Of a stretch of DNA of 43,238 nucleotides, positions 39,160-41,202 are shown piece after piece; the first letter of the stretch is position 1; each line of letters opens with the position of its first letter. Made by a program: the position numbers and the translations under genes. The stretch comes from a candidate division WOR-1 bacterium RIFCSPLOWO2_02_FULL_46_20 (lineage in GTDB: Bacteria > Margulisbacteria > WOR-1 > O2-12-FULL-45-9), in NCBI GenBank assembly GCA_001771365.1, contig METP01000059.1:1-43238 (forward strand), read 5' to 3'. The notes below the pieces were generated by a model that had not been told where the DNA came from, did no database searches, and saw only the letters and a program-made list of their open reading frames with translations.

Positions 39160-39855
39160 CTAGAGCTTCGGAGGGCGTTGCCCAAAAATAGCCCGGCCAA
39201 GCCTGATCATATTCGAGCCTTCCTGGATAGCTATTTCAAAATCATCGGTCATACCCATAGAGAGATACTTCATCTTAACATTGGGAAGGTTTAATTTTTT
39301 AATTTCTTCGCTCAAGGTTTTCAACTTCTTAAAACAGGGACGAGTTTTTTCCGGATCGGCCGCCATCGGGGCGATAGTCATCAAGCCCTGGACTTGAATG
39401 CTAGCAAATCCGCTGATAAGTTGCAATAGTTTCACTGCTTCTTCCGGCTTCACCCCGTATTTCGTCGCTTCCCCCGACGTATTAACCTCAATCAAAATCG
39501 GGGTTCGTCTCTCGCCAATCGTCCGTCGTCTGTCGTCTATTTCCTTCGCCAGTCGCTCCGAATCCACTGATTGAATTAAATTAAATTTTTCCAACGCTTG
39601 TTTAACTTTATTTCTCTGCAAATGGCCAAGCATATGCCAGGTAACGTTTGGATATTTTTGCTTCAGAGCCTCATTTTTTGGGATTGCTTCCTGAATCTTG
39701 TTTTCGCCAACGTCGGTTATGCCGGCTTGGATAGCTTGTTCAATCAATTCAACCGGAATAGTTTTAGTAACTGCGATTAATTTAATATCCTGGGGATCAC
39801 GGCCAAGCGATTTGATCCTTTCACGAATATTCCGCAGGTTTTCTTTAATTGACAC
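39160..39855 (-). CDS. PLP homeostasis protein YggS
   Basis: 232 residues from GTG 39855 (VSIKENLRNIRERIKSLGRD); the track's start at 39939 would read through the promoter. PLP-binding lysine in KLIAVTKTIPVELIEQAI, then GENKIQEAIPKNEALKQKYP, WHMLGHLQRNKVK, IEVNTSGEATKYG, GLMTIAPMA and LSMGMTDDFEIAIQEGSNMIRLG are the YggS/PLPBP motifs. A low-complexity DDRRRTIGERRTP patch replaces the usual helix before the LIEVN strand. TATAAT ends ten bases upstream. It heads the yggS-sepF-proC-yggT-pfkB-aldolase-relA operon. Confidence 0.95.
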   Translation of the reverse strand: MSIKENLRNIRERIKSLGRDPQDIKLIAVTKTIPVELIEQAIQAGITDVGENKIQEAIPKNEALKQKYPNVTWHMLGHLQRNKVKQALEKFNLIQSVDSERLAKEIDDRRRTIGERRTPILIEVNTSGEATKYGVKPEEAVKLLQLISGFASIQVQGLMTIAPMAADPEKTRPCFKKLKTLSEEIKKLNLPNVKMKYLSMGMTDDFEIAIQEGSNMIRLGRAIFGQRPPKL

Positions 39856-39878
39856 CCTGGCGAGTATTATAGCATAAT
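39849..39878. promoter_or_regulatory. Face-to-face near-leaderless promoters, yggS / sorting-domain gene
   Basis: Plus strand: TTGACA (39849-39854), 18 bp, CATAAT (39873-39878), eight bases, ATG 39887. Minus strand: extended -10 TGCTATAAT with TATAAT at 39866-39871, ten bases, GTG 39855. The -10 boxes lie one base apart on opposite strands and the plus -35 box overlaps the yggS start codon. Confidence 0.66.
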
Positions 39879-39886
39879 TAGATACA

Positions 39887-40216
39887 ATGAAACATTTAAG
39901 CTGGTTGTGTGTTTTTCTCATCGCCGTCACCCTCATCAACTACCCCAATCCCTTTAATCCCAAGGGGAACGAAATAACAACCTTTGAATGTACCACCGAC
40001 ACAACAGCCGAAGCCTTTTTGCACATATACGATATGGCGGCGCGCAGGATATTGCGCAAAGCCTTCAACCTCCAGGGCGGAACGGCAGTAAAAACCACCT
40101 GGAACGGTTATAGCGACTACAATGAACAAGTCGGCAACGGCCTTTATCTCTATCAAATTATCGATATTGCTAATAATCGGGTTGGAAAAGGTAAAATATG
40201 GGTCGTCAACCAATAA
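39887..40216 (+). CDS. Stand-alone FlgD-Ig/T9SS-like C-terminal sorting domain with signal peptide
   Basis: 109 residues. A signal sequence (MKHLSWLCVFLIAVTL) is followed directly by NYPNPFNPKGNEITTFECTT, LHIYDMAARRILRKAF, KTTWNGYSDYNEQVGNGLYL and YQIIDIANNRVGKGKIWV. This is the pattern of the FlgD_ig/type IX sorting-like module ('YPNPFNP...IYD..G......WDG....G..V..G.Y.Y'), which normally sits at the C-terminus of large secreted proteins. Here it is the whole mature protein. The start is predicted leaderless. The PorV-like gene overlaps its end by 19 bp. Confidence 0.82.
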   Translation: MKHLSWLCVFLIAVTLINYPNPFNPKGNEITTFECTTDTTAEAFLHIYDMAARRILRKAFNLQGGTAVKTTWNGYSDYNEQVGNGLYLYQIIDIANNRVGKGKIWVVNQ

Positions 40217-41202
40217 CGATCTTCACAACGGCGATGGTGGTCTTGCTCTGTACAACCCTCAACGCCCGGACCACATTTGATCCGTTGTCCATCGGGGTTG
40301 GCGCCAGGGCCCTGGGCATGGGGAAGGCTTACATTGCGGTGGCCGAGGATGGGGACACTATTTTCAACAACCCCGCTGGTTTAGGAGAGATCGACTCCTT
40401 TCAATTTACCAGCATGTCCGGCAGCATTTTAGAAGATTTAACATATACTGTCCTTGGTGGGATTTATCCCACAGGAGGAAAAAGCGCTGTAGGAATAGGT
40501 TATGTTTCAGCCTCGGTGGCTGGCATAGCCATGCGTGATTCGGCTGGAAATTTCCTGGCAAACTCTGATTATAGCAACAGTGTTTTTCTCTTTTCGTTTG
40601 GCAGAAAATTATCAGAAAAATTCTCTCTGGGAGCAAATTTAAAATATTTTTCACAAACCGGCTCTGCCTACAACAACGGCAACGGGACAGGGCTAAATCT
40701 TGATGTGGGCGTACTGCAAAGCGGCTTGGGCTGGCTCTCGCTGGGGGCTGTCGGCCAAAACCTTTTCAGCTCCGGAAAAATTTCATATAAAAATGGAGAA
40801 GAAGAAACCTTCCCCCTAACTCTTAAAGTTGGCGCAAAAATGCACATCCTGGGGCAACAATTTACCGCGGCAGTCTTTTCTCCCACAAAATTAAACATAG
40901 TTCTCGACGCGGACGTACGCTTGCAAGGCACGAAACCAACAACTATTCACGCCGGAGCGGAATTCTCCCCCTCCCCATTGTTAGCTCTCCGAGCCGGGGT
41001 CGACCAATCCCCCTTACCTGGCGGCATACAAAACAACCTTACTTCGGGCATAAGCCTTAAACTGGCTGGCATAGGTTTTCACTACGCCTATCATACTTAT
41101 ACCGAAATTTCAGCAAATTCTACTCATTATTTCTCACTTTCCTTCGATGACCGGGGTTGGCCAATAGAAGGCCCACCGGAAATCATCCTGGGCATGAACT
41201 GA
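40198..41202 (+). CDS. PorV/PorQ-like outer-membrane beta-barrel protein
   Basis: 334 residues. A signal peptide (MGRQPITIFTTAMVVLLCTT ending LNA) precedes GVGARALGMGKAYIAVAEDG and TIFNNPAGLGE, the hallmark N-terminus of PorV/PorQ (UPF0164-like) barrels; alternating beta strands follow to the end (THYFSLSF). PorV in Bacteroidetes shuttles type IX secretion substrates; whether that applies here is unknown. AAAGG lies five bases before the ATG, inside the sorting-domain gene, so the two are co-translated. Confidence 0.82.
   Translation: MGRQPITIFTTAMVVLLCTTLNARTTFDPLSIGVGARALGMGKAYIAVAEDGDTIFNNPAGLGEIDSFQFTSMSGSILEDLTYTVLGGIYPTGGKSAVGIGYVSASVAGIAMRDSAGNFLANSDYSNSVFLFSFGRKLSEKFSLGANLKYFSQTGSAYNNGNGTGLNLDVGVLQSGLGWLSLGAVGQNLFSSGKISYKNGEEETFPLTLKVGAKMHILGQQFTAAVFSPTKLNIVLDADVRLQGTKPTTIHAGAEFSPSPLLALRAGVDQSPLPGGIQNNLTSGISLKLAGIGFHYAYHTYTEISANSTHYFSLSFDDRGWPIEGPPEIILGMN

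Follow-up and report, generated by a model that had tools for sequence, protein, structure and literature searches.

A free type IX-like sorting domain encoded next to a PorV-family barrel in a candidate division WOR-1 bacterium

Toward the end of the window, which is the whole stretch of 43,238 nucleotides from contig METP01000059.1 of the candidate division WOR-1 bacterium RIFCSPLOWO2_02_FULL_46_20 analyzed here, a short gene for an exported C-terminal domain (CTD) is followed by a gene for an outer-membrane barrel (Table 1). CTD sorting domains are normally the tail of large surface proteins. An earlier note on this DNA had described a complete exported CTD whose gene overlaps a PorV/PorQ-like gene by 19 bp, and this description is borne out by the open reading frames and by the family profiles. 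The mini-protein passes TIGR04183, the T9SS type A sorting domain, marginally (23.4 bits, cut-off 23), and the barrel protein passes the PorV/PorQ family model NF033709 (125.3 bits, cut-off 90) and falls far short of the T9SS PorV equivalog NF033710 (51.3 bits, cut-off 250). In addition, the A4 profile matches the solved PorV structure 6h3i (E 1.9e-5). The window PorV ends about 20 residues past the barrel and SLH is absent from it; an AlphaFold model of this protein from three sequences was unusable (pLDDT 36).

Because the promoter ends 8 bases from the start codon of the mini gene, its mRNA is probably leaderless. Positions 39849-39887 of the window hold back-to-back promoters, with the -35 box of the mini gene overlapping the first codons of yggS and a TATAAT for yggS in the opposite direction. 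The AAAAGG-type ribosome-binding sequence of porV lies inside the mini gene, a layout from which we infer that translation of the two genes would be coupled. The window also encodes LptD-like and LptF/G-like proteins, recognized by eye, so that an LPS outer membrane is likely.

Table 1. Coordinates of the CTD/PorV locus in the window and of free CTDs lying between a long CTD gene and PorV in related genomes.
Feature	Position	Strand	Remarks
Free CTD mini-protein ORF, 109 aa, ATG start	39887..40216	+	leader, then CTD/FlgD-Ig-like beta-sandwich
Mini-protein leader, 17 residues	39887..39937	+	K/R-rich start, W6-L7, hydrophobic core, (A/T)13-x-(T/S/A)15, then NYPNP
PorV/PorQ-family outer-membrane barrel ORF, 334 aa, ATG start	40198..41202	+	own signal peptide; no SLH or other C-terminal extension
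Overlap of the mini and porV frames, 19 bp	40198..40216	+	
Sigma-70-like promoter TTGACA-18-CATAAT, 11/12	39849..39878	+	ends 8 bases 5' of the mini ATG
yggS, divergent neighbor, GTG start at 39855	39160..39855	-	conserved left flank of the cassette
Free CTD between long CTD gene and PorV	L183:7390-7728	-	
Free CTD between long CTD gene and PorV	L184:6971-7312	-	
Free CTD between long CTD gene and PorV	L299:1459-1812		

The best profile match of the mini-protein falls at the very C-terminus of PorU (NF033707, E 1e-6, covering positions 998-1075 of a profile of 1095), and a PDB sequence search returned the PorU CTD as the only match at E < 0.01. Pfam FlgD_ig stayed below threshold (16.8 versus 27). 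An AlphaFold model computed with 48 CTDs as input, mostly from other phyla, reaches a pLDDT above 90 for most of residues 31-109; its best PDB match is PorU 6za2 (E 6.8e-5), an Ig-like beta-sandwich of the PorU/RgpB CTD kind; PorZ, FlgD and a 75-residue chain of the SprA-PorV-RemZ complex 8gl8 are, among others, lower structural matches. In the mini-proteins of all 14 genomes that encode one at this locus, the domain stands alone after the leader and carries no cargo. It is confirmed that the mini-protein is essentially only a type IX-like CTD, complete and exported.

The comparison set comprised 57 related genomes, 19 of which (own genome included) belong to the same order. The two-gene unit, whose conservation the earlier note had proposed to check, proved to be conserved: the free mini-protein is present with the same start region in 14 of the 19 order genomes, the 13 others being 50-70% identical to that of the window, and a PorV ortholog lies directly 3' of it in every case. 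The two frames overlap in 12 of these 14 genomes, by 19 bp in six and by 4 bp in another six, and touch or nearly do so in the remaining two. In most genomes whose contigs extend far enough, yggS lies next to the mini gene and rpsB comes after porV; most of the others in this count are on contigs that break off or were missed by the simple gene caller. Between G010 and G012 the mini gene has accumulated 11, 10 and 45 substitutions across the three codon positions (NG86: dN 0.095, dS 1.28, dN/dS about 0.07), a pattern which marks it as a real gene under strong purifying selection.

In four genomes (G017, G019, G025 and G026) yggS adjoins rpsB with too little space between them for the pair. In G015 about 400 bp separate yggS from rpsB, without a CTD or PorV frame. 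Short near-repeats lie in this gap (L275 about 1084-1501), where the cassette would be. G014 has porV-rpsB on a contig that stops within porV, and G001 and G018 were left out of the locus verdict. The empty yggS-rpsB sites indicate that the pair was gained, or in some genomes lost, as one compact cassette. The earlier note had named, as the finding that would speak against it, a longer CTD gene broken in this genome; no such gene was seen at the yggS/rpsB locus in the 14 genomes, and a frameshifted or truncated cargo gene is ruled out by this result together with the strong purifying selection.

The window pair is one of many CTD/PorV pairs in these bacteria. The seven genomes checked carry 7-15 near-full-length PorV-like genes each (80 in total), and 38 of the 80 are immediately preceded by the end of a CTD encoded on the same strand, mostly as part of an open frame of 240-4400 codons. 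CTD frames in other phyla, among the matches listed, all have at least 237 codons. The own genome also encodes long proteins ending in the same domain, a class to which the earlier note had pointed, and those scanned carry Ig-like domains or a beta-helix. Many paralogous PorV proteins have a C-terminal extension, and of 66 such extensions scanned (alignment A2; also L200, L201 and L203), 58 contain SLH, three TPR and two LysM domains. SLH or LysM on these paralogs is likely to be a wall anchor in the same chain as the barrel, and no report of a PorV-SLH fusion was found in the literature searched. CTD distances and PorV distances are correlated (r 0.63, and 0.585 for cargo pairs alone, with 0 of 2000 within-genome shuffles as high for either), which at the level of sequence shows a long-kept CTD-PorV pairing; linked inheritance, which alone can correlate two trees, could contribute to the correlation. 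We also observed one free CTD whose signal peptide is ordinary and which lacks an adjacent PorV (L207:3410-3853:+), and proteins of 186-187 codons that consist of a short pre-domain and a CTD (L212 and L213, from G009 and G010).

PorV genes linked to a mini-protein fall into two strongly supported clades of the PorV tree: clade I, to which the window gene belongs, lies beside cargo PorV-SLH genes, and clade II occurs in families f5 and f8. Mini-linked PorV would on this topology need at least two origins. Clade II pairs (L291-L294) consist of a free CTD and a short PorV, and in L292-L294 one or two more proteins that look exported, and a pth-like gene, come after the pair. Free CTDs of a third kind have a long CTD gene on one side and PorV on the other; those in G009 and G013 are lipoproteins with an LLSGC lipobox, and that in G029 has an ordinary signal peptide. 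PorV is free of extensions in 18 of 18 free-CTD pairs (the window's kind and clade II) versus 12 of 51 cargo pairs, counts in which the orthologs are not independent, so that the contrast is overstated by its Fisher value. Outside the order, the nearest relatives of the mini-protein are the C-termini of 600-1100-aa cargo genes beside PorV-SLH genes. Overall, the window pair appears as a stripped form of a cargo/PorV-SLH pair, without cargo and without SLH; the direction from cargo to mini-protein is a matter of parsimony and not of proof, with the tree rooted at its midpoint. The earlier proposal that the mini-protein is what remains of a larger cargo is in agreement with this ancestry. It does not fit the present state of the gene, as the free CTD form is ancient and selected and is part of a compact cassette.

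In the current view, a sorting domain is a tag that depends on the SprA translocon and in many cases on the PorU sortase as well. SprA (PF14349) was found in none of the 57 relatives, with four of four Bacteroidota controls positive and the own genome 86% complete. The PorU peptidase domain C25 (PF01364) is absent from the own genome, order and class and was found in two of the 57 relatives, elsewhere in the phylum. TIGR03517, for the GldL/M motor, gave no match, and since the Bacteroidota controls did not match either, it had no working positive control. A type IX secretion system as the setting of the pair, for which the earlier note had suggested a search for sov, porK and porU, is not supported, with SprA and the PorU peptidase domain undetected in the own genome, order and class. 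A PorU remnant beside porV was likewise ruled out as the local story: although the CTD is PorU-like, C25 is missing at all three levels.

By analogy with known CTD-PorV systems, there is in our view about an even chance that the two proteins form a constitutive outer-membrane unit of two subunits, in which the mini-protein would be the standing CTD subunit, a lid or adaptor, of its own PorV. The mini-protein would be exported by Sec, fold as a PorU-like CTD and dock on the PorV barrel in the way known for cargo CTDs, here without a passenger. It would then serve as the permanent lid or adaptor of the barrel and not in cargo delivery. The ancestor would have been a cargo-CTD/PorV-SLH pair that was reduced, by loss of its cargo and its wall anchor, to a small housekeeping cassette located between yggS and rpsB. 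The class of explanation put forward in the earlier note, a plug or an adaptor within a minimal surface-attachment module, remains the best one, and for it we infer both binding and location. More tentatively, the class as a whole might have surface display by CTD proteins and PorV-SLH barrels that operates without SprA; free CTD/PorV would be its core, cargo-less part, and free CTDs would have arisen repeatedly.

The leader of the mini-protein raises a different possibility. It comprises exactly 17 residues before NYPNP in 12 of 14 orthologs; W6 and L7 do not vary, and the residue is A or T at position 13 and T, S or A at position 15. Its identity of 48% approaches that of the domain (56%), whereas the signal region of PorV reaches 11% and its barrel 46%. 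As the third codon positions of the leader are free to vary, the constraint acts on the protein. The leader is without a classic AxA cleavage site and may stay uncleaved, holding the protein at the inner membrane. The mini-protein would in that case be a CTD held at the inner membrane or in the periplasm, acting as chaperone or pilot of nascent PorV from the periplasmic side or tying the barrel to the inner membrane. The fixed length, the invariant W6-L7 and the high identity of the leader speak for this reading, as does the lipid-anchored free CTD (LLSGC) that precedes PorV genes in G009 and G013. However, we consider it unlikely: positions 13 and 15 hold small residues in keeping with the -3/-1 rule of signal peptidase I, a pattern that would allow cleavage, at an unusual threonine, and a hydrophobic stretch of 12 residues is short for an anchor. 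In addition, the clade II minis have ordinary-looking signal peptides, and the CTD-PorV contacts known from other systems occur on the cell surface.

It is rather improbable that the mini-protein works like a reduced PorA, as a minimal CTD that is released or stays on the surface and either competes with cargo for PorV or reports whether the barrel is occupied. PorA is a small CTD protein that is surface-located without T9SS machinery and has a reported interaction with PorV, and its 23-kDa form is linked to signaling (PMC7712824); free CTDs are moreover common to many genera. Yet the frame overlap with one particular PorV implies a fixed partner, the mini-protein has no passenger or sensor region and no regulator was seen at the locus. 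CTD and PorV could also be operon neighbors only, active in separate processes and co-inherited by chance linkage. We regard this as quite improbable, as the order of CTD before PorV recurs at dozens of unlinked loci in seven genomes and known CTDs bind PorV-like barrels (PMC5562754, PMC12618676). That the mini gene is what is left of a lost cargo gene, in decay and retained solely because the translation of porV depends on it, would agree with the cargo C-termini as nearest relatives outside the order and with the porV start inside the mini gene, but is highly improbable given the strong purifying selection, the fixed leader and start codon and the count of 0 of 14 genomes with a longer CTD gene at the locus.

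In these genomes, where neither SprA nor the PorU sortase was detected, a sorting domain persists as a whole protein beside its own PorV, together with dozens of CTD/PorV pairs in which the barrel often has SLH domains. If such pairs bind, CTD-PorV docking would be a module usable apart from the known machine, and a minimal pair would be small enough to solve and reconstitute, so that the docking step would become directly testable.

Several known systems share parts of this arrangement. The SLH-barrel architecture of the PorV paralogs resembles that of OmpM outer-membrane tethers (PMC10628300); however, the SLH of OmpM is N-terminal and its barrel is a different one, and the window PorV has no SLH. 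PorA of Porphyromonas gingivalis comprises 246 aa with a FimH-like N-terminal domain, which the mini-protein does not have. The type B CTD genes of Flavobacterium are followed directly downstream by the gene of a cognate shuttle barrel, SprF (PorP-like) (PMC12618676), so that there, too, a CTD gene precedes its barrel partner, and some of these operons include a peptidoglycan-binding partner (PMC12618676, PMC9143113). In this comparison PorE is the wall anchor, and PorE-PorP-PG1035 forms a wall-anchored complex (PMC9143113). Here, by contrast, a type A-like CTD (TIGR04183) is combined with barrels of the PorV/PorQ family; the paralog barrels carry the likely wall anchor (SLH or LysM) as a fusion, and the window pair has none. 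Compared with PorU-PorV of P. gingivalis, the mini-protein is without a peptidase or any other domain, in a genome, order and class in which SprA and the PorU peptidase are undetected. Still, PorU-PorV offers the precedent of a CTD that is never cleaved and is held on the cell surface by PorV (PMC5562754), and the CTD of PorU is the best match of the mini-protein in both structure and profile.
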